From Clostridia bacterium (GTDB taxonomy: Bacteria; Bacillota; Clostridia; Christensenellales; Borkfalkiaceae), in assembly GCA_017505465.1 (NCBI GenBank), contig JAFVPE010000030.1, positions 124,001-188,000 on the forward strand: a stretch of 64,000 nucleotides of DNA, written 5' to 3'. Positions within the stretch are counted from its first letter, which is position 1. Every line of letters begins with the position of its first letter. The notes below the pieces were generated by a model. It saw only the letters and a program-made list of their open reading frames with translations. It was not told where the DNA came from and made no database searches. Positions 56,828 through 62,742 of this stretch are shown here, piece after piece. The position numbers and the translations under genes are program-made.

Positions 56828-58354
56828 ATGTACGAGACTATCATATTCGATTTAGACGGTACACTTTTGGATACTTTGGACGATTTACGGGCGGCGGTCA
56901 ACGCCGCTCTGTCCTTTTACGGCTTGAAGGAGCGGACGGGAGAGGAAGTGCGCTCTTTCGTCGGTAACGGTATTGCAAAATTGATGGAACGCTCGATTGG
57001 AGATAAAGATTTTCCGCATTTTGCTGATGCCTTGCAAAAATTCAAGGAATACTATGGAGAGCACTGCAAGGACGAAACGAAGCCGTACGAAGGGATTTTA
57101 CCCCTGCTTGCGCAGTTGAAAGCGCGCGGCATCCAAACGGCGGTGGTGTCGAATAAAGCGGATTTTGCCGTTAAGATTTTGGCAGAAGAATATTTCGACG
57201 GGTTATTGCTCGACGCCGTGGGGGAAAACGAGTGTATGGGAATACGCAAAAAACCTGCGCCTGATTCTCTGTTTGCCGTTATGAAAAAGCTTGGGGCGAA
57301 GAAAGAAACGACGGTGTACGTCGGGGACTCCGAAGTGGATATTCAAACAGCGAAAAATGCGGGCGTAGACTGCATTTCCGTCACTTGGGGGTTCAAGGAT
57401 AGGGGATTTTTGATTGATAACGGTGCAAGCCGTTTGGTGGATTCCCCTAATGAGATATTCAATTATTGTAGCTTAAAAATCGGGAATACGCCGCTTGTAC
57501 AAATAGAAAAACTTGGCGCAGGATTGCAAGTGTTTGCGAAAATAGAGAAGGAAAACGGCGGCGGCTCCATTAAGGATAGAGTGGCTTTGGCGATTATCGA
57601 AAACGCCGTGAAATCGGGCAAGCTGCAAAAGGGCGGCACGGTAGTGGAAGCGACGTCGGGAAATACGGGCATTGGGCTTGCGCTCGTGGCGAAAACGCTT
57701 GGGTACAAAGCGGTGATCGTGATGCCCGACACCATGACGGCTGAGCGCCGTGAGATGATTAAGGCATACGGCGGCGAAGTGGTTCTTACCGATGGGAAAT
57801 TGGGTATGCAAGGCGCAGTAGAAAGGGCGAAAATGCTTGTCGAAAGCACACAGAACGCCATTCTTGCCGATCAATTCAACAACCCCGTTTGCGCACAGGT
57901 GCATTACGAAAAGACGGGTGTGGAAATTTGGGAGCAAATGCAAGGCAAGGTGGATATTTTCGTGGCGTGCGTGGGCACGGGCGGTACGTTGACTGGGATT
58001 GGACGGTACTTAAAGGAACGCAATCCCAACGTGAAAATCGTGGCGGTTGAGCCTGCGAAATCCCCACTATTATCGCAAGGAAGGGCGGCTTCGCACGGTA
58101 TTCAGGGCATCGGTGCAAATTTCGTGCCGAGCGTGTTGGATAGAACGATTTATGACGAAATTGTGACGGTAACGGACGAAGATGCCTACGAAACGGCGCG
58201 TGCACTGCAACGGGAAGAAAGCTTATTCGTAGGGATTTCTTCGGGGGCGGCGGCTGCAGCGGCGATTGCGATTGCCAAACGAAAAGAAAACGTAGGCAAG
58301 CGCATCGTGACGGTGTTCCCTGACGACGGAAATCGTTATCTTTCGGTGCTGTAA
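56828..58354 (+). CDS. HAD phosphatase fused to cysteine synthase
   Basis: A 508-residue two-domain protein. Residues 1 to about 212 are a HAD hydrolase like phosphoglycolate phosphatase, with FDLDGTLLDT (nucleophile Asp8 and Asp10), SNK at 108-110 and GDSEVDI at 166-172. From about 215 it is CysK: SLKIGNTPLVQIEKL, the PLP lysine Lys249 in GGGSIKDR, TSGNTGIGLA at 276-285, GTGGTLTGIGRYLK and GISSGAAAAA. CysK makes cysteine from O-acetylserine and sulfide. All catalytic residues of both halves are present, and the join is in frame with no internal start. I do not know this pairing as an established fusion. A small indel joining two genes is the alternative: an out-of-frame ATG lies at 57450. 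AAGGG precedes the ATG. Confidence 0.9.
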   Translation: MYETIIFDLDGTLLDTLDDLRAAVNAALSFYGLKERTGEEVRSFVGNGIAKLMERSIGDKDFPHFADALQKFKEYYGEHCKDETKPYEGILPLLAQLKARGIQTAVVSNKADFAVKILAEEYFDGLLLDAVGENECMGIRKKPAPDSLFAVMKKLGAKKETTVYVGDSEVDIQTAKNAGVDCISVTWGFKDRGFLIDNGASRLVDSPNEIFNYCSLKIGNTPLVQIEKLGAGLQVFAKIEKENGGGSIKDRVALAIIENAVKSGKLQKGGTVVEATSGNTGIGLALVAKTLGYKAVIVMPDTMTAERREMIKAYGGEVVLTDGKLGMQGAVERAKMLVESTQNAILADQFNNPVCAQVHYEKTGVEIWEQMQGKVDIFVACVGTGGTLTGIGRYLKERNPNVKIVAVEPAKSPLLSQGRAASHGIQGIGANFVPSVLDRTIYDEIVTVTDEDAYETARALQREESLFVGISSGAAAAAAIAIAKRKENVGKRIVTVFPDDGNRYLSVL

Positions 58355-58438: not shown

Positions 58439-60127
58439 TTAGCTGACCAAGGGCATTAAGAATGCCGAAGCAAGGGCGCAACAAATCGTCAAGGAAAGCA
58501 CGTCCACAATCGTGGTAATGAAGGGGGATGCGACTACCGCAGGATCGAGCTTGCATTTCTTTGCCAAAAGGGGCAACGCCGCACCGATGATTTTTGCGAT
58601 CAAAACGGTTATGAACAAGGACAAGCAAATCACAAGGGCTACCCACATACCGTTTTCGACTTTCCAAAGTCTATCGATGAGCATCAACTTACCAAAGCAA
58701 GCTACGCAAAGCATTGCGCCGAGCATGAGCGATACACGGATTTCCTTCCAAACGACCTTCAAAATGTCGGAAAACTCCATTTCCTTTAAGGCGATACCAC
58801 GAATGACCATGGCGCTCGCCTGCGAACCTGCGTTACCGCCCGTACCCATGAGCATGGGGGTGCAAGCCGTCAAAATAATGCCGAAAACGGGCATATTGAG
58901 CACGTTTTCATTCGCCGTAATGACAAGCCCCGAAAGGGTGGAGGAAACGAGCAATATCAAAAGCCAAGGCAAGCGGTTTAAGCAAATGCGCCAAGCGCTC
59001 GTTTTCAAGTAAGGGGTTTCGGTTGGCGTGATAGCCGCCATTTTCGAAATATCTTCCGTGTTCTCTTCTTGAATGACGTCCATTGCGTCGTCGACGGTAA
59101 CGATACCGACAAGGCGCATTTCTCTATCCACAATAGGGAGCGCCAAGAAACCGTAATCGGAAATCTTTCTCGCAACGTCTTCTTTATCGTCTTCGGTATA
59201 GGCGTAGATGACGTTTTCGTTCATGATTTCGGATACGAGATCGGTCTTTTGCGAGAGCATCAAATCCTTTGCCGTGACAAGGCCGAGAATCTTTTTCGTT
59301 TCGTCTACAACGTAGCAGGTGTAGATCGTTTCCTTGTCGATTGCCGTTCTGCGAATCCGCTCGAAGGCGTCGTCCACCGTCATGGTGGGGCGAAGGGAAA
59401 CGAACTCAATCGTCATAATACTCCCTGCACTATCCTTCGGATATTTTAAAATTTCATTGATGTATGCACGGGTTTCGCTGTCGCTTTGCGCCAAAACACG
59501 CTTGACGACGCTTGCAGGCATTTCTTCGATAAGGTCGACGGTATCGTCGAGGAAAAGCTCGTCCATGACGGCGCGCAATTCGCGGTCGCTCAATTTGTGA
59601 ATGAGCTTTTCTTTCGTCTTGCTATCCATTTCAATGAACGTTTCCGCCGCAAGGTCTTTGGGCAGGATACGGAAGAGGATCAAAAGGTCGGTATCCTTTT
59701 CCGATTCTTCGAATACTTCGGCAAGGTCGATGGCGTTCATTGATGCGAGCAGGGGCTTCAAGACGGCGTAATTGCGGTCTTCAAGCAACATCAAAATTTC
59801 ATCCAATTCCGCAATACGGCGGACGATTTCCTGCGGCATGTCCTCGATGATTTCCACCGTTTCGTCAACGGACATTTCGTCCATGACCTTTTCAAGCTCG
59901 TCGTCGCGCAAGCCGCTAATAATTTGCTCTTGCAGGGTGGGCTCTAAAAGCAAAAGGGTGTCTGCGAGCAGTTCGCTATCCAAAGCGCGCGTAAAGGGCG
60001 TGAGCTGCTCGGTATTTACGTTAGGAAGGATTTGTGCAAGATCTTCGGGCGAAAGCTTATCTACAAGCTTTGCCGCGCTTTCGTAGTCTTGCGCTTCCAA
60101 AAATTCAAAAAGTTCTTTCTGTTCCAT
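58439..60127 (-). CDS. mgtE: Magnesium transporter MgtE with enlarged N-domain
   Basis: A 562-residue MgtE, about 110 residues above the usual 450. The N-terminal superhelical domain is doubled: units around 25-110 and 130-215 share a VMDE-DD/ETV-IEDMP pattern. A CBS pair follows (about 240-370), then five membrane spans with the pore signature GTGGNAGSQAS. MgtE is a Mg2+ channel closed by its cytoplasmic domains at high Mg2+. GGAGGTAG precedes the ATG at 60127. A 25-codon leader ORF and mutually exclusive RNA stems lie just upstream, which suggests regulation by translation. A secreted propeller gene ends 188 bases upstream. Confidence 0.95.
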   Translation of the reverse strand: MEQKELFEFLEAQDYESAAKLVDKLSPEDLAQILPNVNTEQLTPFTRALDSELLADTLLLLEPTLQEQIISGLRDDELEKVMDEMSVDETVEIIEDMPQEIVRRIAELDEILMLLEDRNYAVLKPLLASMNAIDLAEVFEESEKDTDLLILFRILPKDLAAETFIEMDSKTKEKLIHKLSDRELRAVMDELFLDDTVDLIEEMPASVVKRVLAQSDSETRAYINEILKYPKDSAGSIMTIEFVSLRPTMTVDDAFERIRRTAIDKETIYTCYVVDETKKILGLVTAKDLMLSQKTDLVSEIMNENVIYAYTEDDKEDVARKISDYGFLALPIVDREMRLVGIVTVDDAMDVIQEENTEDISKMAAITPTETPYLKTSAWRICLNRLPWLLILLVSSTLSGLVITANENVLNMPVFGIILTACTPMLMGTGGNAGSQASAMVIRGIALKEMEFSDILKVVWKEIRVSLMLGAMLCVACFGKLMLIDRLWKVENGMWVALVICLSLFITVLIAKIIGAALPLLAKKCKLDPAVVASPFITTIVDVLSLTICCALASAFLMPLVS

Positions 60128-60130
60128 ACT

Positions 60131-60207
60131 CTACCTCCGTGATAATGCGTAAATCGTAGGTAGCGTACACTCGTCGTGATTTAAGGGCGCGAAAAAGAAC
60201 GCGCTAC
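60131..60207 (-). promoter_or_regulatory. Alternative stems gating the mgtE ribosome binding site
   Basis: In the mRNA sense, GTAGCG (60207-60202, inside the leader ORF) can pair with CGCTAC (60165-60160). The overlapping CTACCT (60163-60158) can instead pair with AGGTAG (60136-60131), which is the mgtE SD. The two stems share CTAC, so they cannot form together. An extra local stem GCGCG/CGCGC around 60204-60186 complicates the fold. Confidence 0.5.
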
Positions 60208-60258
60208 ACGTAAAATCTTACTTGGCGGGTCTACGCTTGGGTGACTGTCGTTTAGCAT
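60181..60258 (-). CDS. Leader peptide ORF upstream of mgtE (25 codons)
   Basis: A 25-residue ORF starting MLNDSHPSVDPPSK and ending in a basic stretch and a Pro, then TAA. It has a strong SD (AAAGGAG) 8 to 14 bases before its ATG, better than many genes in the window. The early Asp/Pro-rich part resembles leader peptides such as MgtL of enteric bacteria, where acidic and proline codons destabilise ribosomes at low Mg2+ and switch on a Mg2+ transporter. Its codons 18-19 form one arm of the alternative stem described above. No homology can be claimed at this length; the SD, position and composition are the evidence. Confidence 0.55.
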   Translation of the reverse strand: MLNDSHPSVDPPSKILRVARSFSRP

Positions 60259-60315
60259 AACGTTCTTCTCCTTTGTTATAAATTTGGCTGTTGGGGGAGC
60301 CGCCCGTTTGTTTCG

Positions 60316-62742
60316 TTAGTTTTCTTTCTTCTTTTTCAAGAGCAAAATGTCTACGAGAATACAAATTGCCGCCGAACCAAGCACGAGATAAGCGAGTCTC
60401 CAAACAGAGTCGTTATTGTTCGCCGTGCCGCCGTAGATCACCGTTTCCGTTTGGGGCGGAGCACCGTCGAAGGCGCAAACGAAGGACTGCGGAACGTAGC
60501 CGCGAAGGGTGGTTTCACCGTCCGTATATTCTACGTAGTAATAGGGGTAGTCGAGGTTTTCTACCTTGCCAAGCACCTTCACCGTATGCCCTTGTTGCAA
60601 TCTTGCAACGGTCAAAAGCTCGGTGAGATAGGGGAATTTATAAAGGGTAACGTCGCTAGTAAGATACCCTGTTTTTAACGTTTCTTCGCTGTCACGGAAA
60701 TCTACTTCCTTGCACGCGCTTGTGAGAACAAGACAGGTGCTGTACGAGTTGCTTACTTCGTCGTATACGACGAGCACGCTGTACGGAGCGGCTTCGCCGA
60801 TACGGAGCGCCGTGAAGGAAGCTCTGCGCTCATAGGAAAGGTAGGGGAAATATTCCGCACCTTGCAGCTTGTTGATGTCAAACTCTACGGCAAGCGCCCC
60901 CGACGTTGTTTCTATAACGGAAAATTCTGCGCTTTCGTTGGCAAAGATACTCTTGTCCACACCGTTTACCGCAATGCTGCGGACGGTGGGAAGTTGAAGC
61001 GCCGCCGTCTTTGCAAGATAATTTTCGCCGTACAAAAGATAGGTTACGTTTTCTTCAATGCTGAACGCAAACGAGCGAACGGTTGCGCTATCCGAATATA
61101 CGAGCGGCGTGTTCAAGTCAAACGGCTCGTTTTTGCCAAGCTTTTGCAGCTTTCCGTCAATCAACGCGTACATGCTCCCCTCATAATCGATAAGAAGGTT
61201 GCTTGCTTGTTCAAGTAAGGGATTTTCGTAGAAAGGGGCGGTCGTTTCGTACGTTGCGGAAAGGAACTCTTCTTCCGTGAATTTATATACCTGCGCGCCG
61301 CTTGTTACGTACAAGTTGCCGTAGACGTCGGAAGTGAGCAAATCGGCTTTGCGTTTTTGCAGGTGCTCGATTTTGGTAAGCGTCCAACCTTCCGCCGTTT
61401 GTTCCGCCACGTAGTGACAGTAGTTGTCCGTTGCGAAATAATATTTCCCGTAGACGTTGGTAACTCCTTCCACTCGCCCGTTGAAATCGTCGAAGGCAAA
61501 GACTGCCGTGCCGTAATCGTTCGTTTCAAGACTATACAAAACCGCTTCGCCTTCCGTTGCCGACATCACCGTTGTTCCGTCCGAGGACAGGTATGCGGCG
61601 GTCAAATCCGAAGGGATAGCAGGAAGGTAGGTTTCGTCTTGTACGTCGTACACCGAAATGCGGTGGTTGCCGTTTTCCGCAATGAGCAGTTTGCCGTTCG
61701 CAAGCGTCATTGCCGTACCGTCGTTTAAGCGGTGTGCGGAATCGGATTCGCTACAAATTTCATAGCTCGTGAATTGCGATTCTGCAATCGAGTAGCAACG
61801 AACGGAATTCTCTTTGACGGCATACACGCATTCGCCGTAGACGTTGAGAGCAGAATAGCCGCCGACGTCCATGGTGATCGGCGAAATTAAATCCGTCGCT
61901 TTGCTTGCCGTAAGCTCGGTTAAATCATAAGCAAAGAAAGTGGGGCGAGCCGTCGAATTTTCATCGCGGGGGGAGTTGTCCGTGCAAACGAGTACGTCCT
62001 TCTCAATCGCAATGGAAGAAATCCCCGAAAGGTTGGGAAACGCCGCAACGTAGCTGCTCTTGTTTGTATCAAGATTGATTTTATAGAGCATCAAATGGCT
62101 CGTATAATATAACTCGTTTTGATATACGGTAATCGTCGGATTGCCCGAAAGATTGCTTGCAAGCGTTATCGCTTGGTTGCCGTCAAGCAGGGGATTTTCA
62201 AGGTCAAGCTCGGAAATATCCAACTTGGAAAGCTGCGTCGTGCTCTTGACGTCCGTATAGTACAAGGTGTTTTCGTGTAAATAGAAGGTACTGCAATTGA
62301 AACGGGTTTCCAAAATCTTGACGGTATCTTCGTCGATTGTTTTTAAATCGAGCGCATACAAATAGGTTGCGTCAAGGAAATACAAATAGCGGTTGCCGTA
62401 AAATTGCAGCTTCGTCACGTTGTTTTTCAATGGATCTTGCGTGTTGAACTCGTGGGAATATTTGCGGTAAATCCCTGCTTCACGGTCAAAGATATAGATG
62501 ACGTTTCCATCGGCAATAGCGGTGTAATGTTCGCTAACCGCCACGTCGGAAGGAGCGGAAAGGGAAAGGTATTCTTCATACGTGGCAGGGGAAATGAGGG
62601 ACGTTTGCGCCGTCGCTCCGTTTTCGTTTGCCGTTTCCGCTTTTGCCTCGGCGAAATTTTGTGCGCCAAGCATCGCCGCGCCCGTAATTCCAAGCGCGGC
62701 GCAGGTAAGCGCCGATAAAATTATTGCCGTGATTTTCTTCAT
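60316..62742 (-). CDS. Secreted beta-propeller protein with SH3-like domain and C-terminal anchor
   Basis: An 808-residue exported protein. A signal peptide (about 1-33, ending AKA) is followed by a long series of four-stranded repeats such as VAVSEHYTAIADGNVIYIFD, which reads as one or two beta-propellers of the YVTN/NHL kind up to about residue 570. A later segment near 700-760 (GHTVKVLGKVENLDYPYYYVEY) looks like a bacterial SH3 domain. It ends with one membrane span (about 783-801) and KKKKEN, so it is anchored at the C-terminus with the bulk outside. No enzyme motif is seen. The ATG follows its -10 box by only 8 bases and lacks an SD. mgtE lies downstream. Confidence 0.8.
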   Translation of the reverse strand: MKKITAIILSALTCAALGITGAAMLGAQNFAEAKAETANENGATAQTSLISPATYEEYLSLSAPSDVAVSEHYTAIADGNVIYIFDREAGIYRKYSHEFNTQDPLKNNVTKLQFYGNRYLYFLDATYLYALDLKTIDEDTVKILETRFNCSTFYLHENTLYYTDVKSTTQLSKLDISELDLENPLLDGNQAITLASNLSGNPTITVYQNELYYTSHLMLYKINLDTNKSSYVAAFPNLSGISSIAIEKDVLVCTDNSPRDENSTARPTFFAYDLTELTASKATDLISPITMDVGGYSALNVYGECVYAVKENSVRCYSIAESQFTSYEICSESDSAHRLNDGTAMTLANGKLLIAENGNHRISVYDVQDETYLPAIPSDLTAAYLSSDGTTVMSATEGEAVLYSLETNDYGTAVFAFDDFNGRVEGVTNVYGKYYFATDNYCHYVAEQTAEGWTLTKIEHLQKRKADLLTSDVYGNLYVTSGAQVYKFTEEEFLSATYETTAPFYENPLLEQASNLLIDYEGSMYALIDGKLQKLGKNEPFDLNTPLVYSDSATVRSFAFSIEENVTYLLYGENYLAKTAALQLPTVRSIAVNGVDKSIFANESAEFSVIETTSGALAVEFDINKLQGAEYFPYLSYERRASFTALRIGEAAPYSVLVVYDEVSNSYSTCLVLTSACKEVDFRDSEETLKTGYLTSDVTLYKFPYLTELLTVARLQQGHTVKVLGKVENLDYPYYYVEYTDGETTLRGYVPQSFVCAFDGAPPQTETVIYGGTANNNDSVWRLAYLVLGSAAICILVDILLLKKKKEN

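Follow-up and report, generated by a model that had tools for sequence, protein, structure and literature searches.

The window considered here, a stretch of 64,000 nucleotides from a Clostridia bacterium, contains on its minus strand a gap of 188 nt between an 808-codon open reading frame (ORF), which ends at 60316, and the mgtE gene, which starts at 60127. The encoded protein matches TIGR00400 with 473.8 bits (cut-off, 232.75), and its MgtE, MgtE_N, and CBS domains were also matched; the gene downstream of the gap is a true mgtE. A 25-codon frame with a strong Shine-Dalgarno (SD) sequence had been noticed upstream of mgtE in a preliminary description of this DNA, and it was confirmed as MLNDSHPSVDPPSKILRVARSFSRP, preceded by AAAGGAGAAG. 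The features of the region are collected in Table 1.

Table 1. Leader, pairing segments, and mgtE in the window (minus strand; H1, H2, and H3 are the helices described in the text)
Feature	Position	Strand	Remarks
mgtE, 562-aa magnesium transporter	58439..60127	-	TIGR00400; PF01769, PF03448, PF00571
H3 3' strand AGGUAGAGUA, mgtE SD to first base of mgtE start codon	60127..60136	-	
mgtE Shine-Dalgarno GGAGG	60134..60138	-	
H3 5' strand UACGCUACCU, anti-SD for mgtE	60158..60167	-	CUACC conserved in alignment A1
H2 3' strand UACGCU, starts 13 nt past leader stop, common to H3	60162..60167	-	
Leader ORF MLNDSHPSVDPPSKILRVARSFSRP, 25 codons + TAA	60181..60258	-	open frame kept in 35 leaders of the genus
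H1 3' strand GCGUUCUUUUUC, inside leader codons 19-23	60191..60202	-	pairs with 60260-60271
H2 5' strand AGCGUA, leader codons 8-9 (Ser-Val)	60232..60237	-	covaries with 60162-60167
H1 5' strand, leader Shine-Dalgarno region GGAGAAGAACGU	60260..60271	-	covaries with its partner in relatives

Some further properties of the neighbouring genes were observed. The 808-aa ORF just 5' of the leader (60316-62742, minus strand) has no Pfam or NCBIfam match, and ORF ends resembling its own (...ILVDxLILRKKKDD) are found 5' of the leader in many relatives of the same genus (g1). The N-terminus of the window MgtE is about 100 residues longer than in relatives from genera g5 and g6 and in three g1 members (L051, L053, L054), where the matches start near residue 106-110. 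On the plus strand, a single ORF at 56828-58354 appears to encode a fusion protein, in which residues 5-185 are a HAD-type phosphatase and residues 215-499 a PALP/cysteine-synthase-like enzyme.

Taken as a single sequence, the window leader is inconspicuous. No Rfam family was matched by it, either at the gathering cut-off or with E values up to 5, and the stability of its RNA is not unusual with respect to expectation (z of -0.99), so that the case for the leader depends on comparative evidence. A scan for intrinsic terminators (a hairpin followed by a U-run) found none 3' of the leader stop; the sole site, weak and of 5 bp, lies within the leader ORF (60211-60199), and the totals for the region are close to those of shuffled sequences. 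The window leader thus lacks the intrinsic terminator of a transcription attenuator.

The frame of the leader has been kept open in its relatives. Over codons 2-20, frame 0 has no stops in g1 (0 of 665 codons) or in g9, a second genus of the same family (0 of 665, counted with genome G067), as compared with 66 and 46 stops in the other two frames in g1 and 19 and 33 in g9; none of the 70 leaders counted has an interrupted ORF. Codon 2 in g1 encodes Ser by TCA, TCT, AGT, or AGC, whereas in g9 codon 2 (Lys) is AAA or AAG, codon 3 (Gly) is any GGN, and CGA AGT at codons 4-5 is near-fixed. This mixture of synonymous variation at some codons and near-fixed triplets at others shows that the leader is under both amino-acid and nucleotide constraint, acting on different codons. 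The comparisons show that the leader is a real coding frame and part of a conserved regulatory element, and they provide the conserved translated ORF expected of a ribosome-controlled translational attenuator.

The 5' half of the leader is rich in rare codons. Codons 2-13 have a mean codon score of 0.48, compared with 0.67 at the starts of the 43 window ORFs taken as genes, and the window's own leader (0.42) scores lower than all 43 of these starts; from codon 14 to the end the score is 0.74. The CTA codon makes up 1.9% of the Leu codons in the window, yet it occupies the same place in 34 of the 35 g1 leaders.

An MgtE relative, mostly orthologous, was found in 40 of the 57 g1 genomes covered. 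The leader was recognised 5' of 35 of the g1 mgtE genes examined, with a length of 22-35 codons and typical starts such as MSDYHPSVDPLS..., MSDYHSSSVYPLC..., and MDHLSKNGVEPLR...; beyond these 35, genomes G003 and G054 have a diverged leader, V/MDDRSRGDDKPGL, with candidate stems of its own. Two g1 genomes possess mgtE with no recognisable leader: in G043 the gene directly adjoins the upstream gene, and in G015 (locus L025) short GAATTGC-type repeats take the leader's place, with GGAGGTAGAG before mgtE retained. L025 is a natural leader-less allele.

Outside the genus of the window, the leader occurs at 36 of the 38 g9 loci examined, starting with VKGRSS or MKGRSS (one with VEGPSP), and most of the g9 leaders have a TTGACA/TATAAT promoter immediately 5' of them. 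The two g9 mgtE genes devoid of a leader (L171, L175) show a -10 box a few bases 5' of GAGGGACTATG. A third genus is represented by one genome, G067, with the leader MKGRSCSADPCRKERITCSFLL before mgtE. In genus g51, from another family, the leader VKGRSNEQDTGYRSKTAFFVF was read in G612 and model matches were obtained in G668 and G569, all 5' of mgtE. All strong leader-model matches sit 5' of mgtE, and the element was found 5' of this gene only. A second match of model R1, in G009 (L084), was attributed to chance, as the DNA matched is a promoter together with the beginning of an unrelated gene; matches of model R2 below about 25 bits were also taken as chance, and the one that was read, L193, has no MgtE open frame. 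The core DNA motif was matched in MAGs of Clostridia or Clostridiales, nearly all of which are labelled as gut samples of roe deer, water deer, or sheep. No earlier description of this leader was found in the open-licence papers that the literature search covered.

Three helices are predicted in the region. H1 joins the leader SD region to the 3' part of the leader ORF (codons 19-23 in the window); H2, in its general layout among relatives, joins leader codons ~7-9 to a post-stop strand, segment D; and H3 joins D to the mgtE SD. H2 and H3 are mutually exclusive, since both use D. In the g1 alignment, standard pairs fill 87.6% of the H1 and H2 cells, compared with 39-53% when the strands are slid, and 13 of the 17 pairs show two-sided changes. 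When strands were swapped among g1 loci, H1 was more stable with its own partner than with a foreign one (-17.0 versus -12.3 kcal/mol), as was H2 (-11.9 versus -10.1 kcal/mol), with 0 of 20000 permutations in both cases. Leader codons 4-14, which hold AGCGTA (60237-60232) with TACGCT as its partner, gave -15.08 for own and -12.67 for cross combinations (0/20000). The strand swap in g9 yielded 0/20000 for each of H1, H2, and H3, and the H2 alignment count in that genus agrees. H3 in the g1 alignment is conserved but not covarying, and its strand swap is not significant there.

Strand swapping leaves relatedness in, and the MgtE tree therefore served as a safeguard. On this tree, H2 compensations fall on separate branches (L007, L018, L019, L013, and L020), a G-C to A-U exchange in H1 separates L027 and L029, which are well-supported sisters, and H1 is also compensated in L028. 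On inspection by eye, compensation seems present in three aberrant loci, namely L012 (CUACUUCA/UGAGGUAG), L018 (UUACC/GGUAA), and L020 (CCUUC/GAAGG). The comparisons show that the three helices are maintained, H2 and H3 excluding each other through D, and that the covarying, exclusive stems of a ribosome-controlled translational attenuator, one of them masking the target SD, are present.

Mutually exclusive stems had been proposed in the preliminary description, and this idea was upheld in part. The complementarity of CTACCT (60163-60158) to the mgtE SD, AGGTAG (60136-60131), was borne out: the stem is conserved and belongs to the minimum-energy fold, in which additional UAC:GUA pairs carry it as far as the A in the start codon AUG of mgtE. 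The partner named for the competing stem was wrong, AGCGTA of codons 8-9 being the strand that should be placed there, and H1 was missing from the scheme altogether.

Several variants of the pairing pattern were noted separately. In a g9 subgroup (L095, L168, L174, L153), H2 is weak at the expected place; farther on in the ORF, a GACGG would be able to pair with a post-stop CCGUC, and the H2 partner may have moved. The diverged leader of L050 (G054) and L052 (G003) retains CGAAGTAG, as g9 does, and by eye offers an H2-like GGCGA:UCGCC and an H3-like CUUUCUU:AAGAAAG as candidates. A local hairpin, AGCG-UAGACC-CGCU, was considered in g1 and dropped, as L013 and L015 are unable to form it.

Folding calculations outline how these helices might bear on mgtE. 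With the region after the leader stop folded alone, the mean openness of the mgtE SD is 0.18 in g1, 0.15 in g9 and g12 together, and 0.30 in the window; it is predicted to rise to 0.57, 0.55, and 0.76, respectively, when D is held in H2. In the computed ribosome-free fold, the SDs of the leader and of mgtE are both mostly paired, and in the simulation H2 is lost when a ribosome is placed with codons 9-14 in its P site.

A conserved translated leader with competing stems, located where sister genera have a Mg2+ riboswitch, suggests that MgtE synthesis is probably set by the ribosomes' handling of the leader. A ribosome elongating through the rare-codon-rich codons ~5-15 would cover the 5' strand of H2, D would then pair with the mgtE SD, and mgtE would be off. 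Upon early failure of leader translation, H1 would close the leader SD and the 5' strand of H2 would stay free, allowing H2 to capture D and mgtE to be translated. The natural signal would be low intracellular Mg2+, acting via translation of the leader. That the 188-nt gap constitutes a ribosome-controlled translational attenuator is, in our judgment, highly probable; the whole statement, including the repressing sign and the low-Mg2+ signal, is evenly balanced between being right and wrong.

The sign of control is where the calculations are less favorable to this scheme. Pseudoknot-free equilibrium folding in g1, with a ribosome footprint placed at each codon, produced no flip, H3 remaining dominant throughout and the mgtE SD open at 0.15-0.21. 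The dominance of H3 at every ribosome position means that H2 would have to be assisted by folding kinetics, by pseudoknot formation with H1, or by some other factor, and it makes the opposite sign a real alternative, although we regard it as rather unlikely. Leader translation would then activate mgtE, as mgtQ does for Salmonella mgtB: the untranslated RNA, with H1 and H3 formed, would be off, and a ribosome translating the 3' half would break H1 and free the 5' strand of H2, and formation of H2 would open the mgtE SD. The default fold agrees with such a scheme, consisting of H1 and H3 with both SDs paired, and these two helices are compatible side by side, whereas H1 with H2 would be a pseudoknot. 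Simulated ribosomes at codons 16-26 lift H2 only slightly, however, and the mgtE SD stays closed at equilibrium. Precedents point both ways, as mgtQ operates in the activating sense (PMC8092293) but the other Mg2+ leaders, MgtL and CorL, repress (PMC11552253, PMC11282234). The order of folding during transcription, or a pseudoknot beyond the reach of the program, must decide the sign.

The link to Mg2+ comes from the gene and from what other genomes carry at the same place. The M-box (RF00380), given in the preliminary description as the known route in Gram-positive bacteria, indeed lies directly upstream of the same gene in sister genera: it was found 42-218 nt 5' of the matched part of the orthologous mgtE in 18 genomes of g5, g6, and g18. 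At the gathering score, the window has no M-box match, and neither has any of the leader genomes searched. An M-box is carried by four g1 and g9 genomes in which nothing matched this mgtE above the cut-off of the search (G001, G002, G056, G156), and the frame 3' of it resembles, by eye, a cation P-type ATPase in each, as Pfam confirmed in three of them. The G001 ATPase, the only one scored against NCBIfam, has the Mg2+-translocating type as its best match; being a fragment, it scores below the cut-off for full-length proteins. The simplest reading would be that one Mg2+ control has been replaced by another at mgtE, and the attenuator is probably responsive to Mg2+.

A signal other than Mg2+, such as general translation capacity, charged tRNA, or another stress altering leader translation, would be in keeping with the concentration of rare codons in the conserved half of the leader. 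This possibility appears improbable, given that the leader is associated with mgtE only, that it stands in for the M-box at the same gene, and that it has no single-amino-acid run, unlike the leaders of amino-acid attenuators. More improbable still is a ribosome-independent Mg2+ riboswitch built on an H1/H2 pseudoknot, the ORF being incidental; the pseudoknot topology of H1 with H2 and its covariation would fit, but the frame is open in every leader counted and varies synonymously at codons 2-3, the helices vary freely in sequence and have a conserved core nowhere outside coding codons, linkers of ~20-30 nt make a compact aptamer unlikely, and the Rfam search was empty even at its permissive limit.

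The exact switch of the preliminary description, in which ribosome drop-off at Asp/Pro codons would let GTAGCG (60207-60202, codons 18-19) pair with CGCTAC (60165-60160), can for practical purposes be discarded: the 6-bp complementarity is present in the window, but GTAGCG occurs in just 3 of the 35 leaders, the region from codon 15 to the end shows no excess of own over cross pairing (-11.59 versus -11.61 kcal/mol, 10403/20000), and Pro is missing from the first 13 residues of 24 of 37 g9 leaders. The supposed Asp/Pro sensor likewise fails in g1, where the "D" position is D, Y, V, E, P, or I, and [DE]P is found in 6 of the 37 g9 leaders; P-L is retained in g1 leaders, largely as the fixed string CCGCTA. 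Conservation in relatives was verified for the ORF and for the stem on the mgtE SD, and not for the codon 18-19 stem or, in g9, for the Asp/Pro codons. The general logic, with a leader ribosome covering one strand of the opening stem, would be possible with the corrected strand.

Enterobacteria are known to control Mg2+ uptake through leader peptides, and mgtE of Gram-positive bacteria is regarded as M-box territory. It may be that a Gram-positive Mg2+ sensor consists of a ribosome reading a short leader of the KGRSS/SDYH type, which would have replaced the M-box before mgtE in several genera of uncultured Clostridia belonging to at least two families, being convergent with, and different from, the enterobacterial MgtL and MgtQ; this broad proposal is a tentative one, whose chances we place somewhat below even. 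A translated leader where sister genera have a riboswitch represents a natural pair of solutions at one gene, which offers a means of testing if a ribosome could gauge Mg2+ in place of an aptamer. For such a test, some 70 natural leaders are ready to use, diverged from one another and with helices that drift freely but stay matched.

With regard to known systems, erm-type translational attenuators similarly combine a leader peptide with exclusive stems that mask a downstream SD, but they differ in having an antibiotic-stalled leader and a resistance gene. Judged from its conserved features, the leader element appears to belong, as a functional class, to the ribosome-controlled translational attenuators. 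It shares with the M-box (ykoK, RF00380) of g5, g6, and g18 its position 5' of orthologous mgtE, but it contains a translated ORF and does not match the M-box. The mgtE motif of Thioalkalivibrio is a structured RNA that includes the SD and AUG of an mgtE gene (PMC11109978); compared by description only, it differs in being a riboswitch candidate confined to Thioalkalivibrio (PMC11109978).

The MgtL and CorL leaders of enterobacterial mgtA and corA have Rho-dependent termination as their output, and the sensor of MgtL is an EPDP motif (PMC11282234, PMC11552253). The element described here would share with them the principle that leader translation reports Mg2+ and selects the RNA fold 5' of a Mg2+ importer; unlike in those systems, its stem masks an SD, and no acidic/Pro motif of the MgtL type is conserved. 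In its mode of action the element would most resemble Salmonella mgtQ, an 8-codon leader of mgtB in which Asp2 and Glu5 are required (PMC8092293). Both are short intergenic ORFs with a strong SD located 5' of a Mg2+ transporter gene, and both have alternative stems, one of which hides the transporter ribosome-binding site, with translational control (predicted in the present case). Unlike mgtQ, the leader described here has 20-35 codons, no conserved acidic pair, and an extra helix closing its own SD; the transporter is of the MgtE family and the host is a member of the Clostridia, which sets the element apart from the mgtQ family itself.
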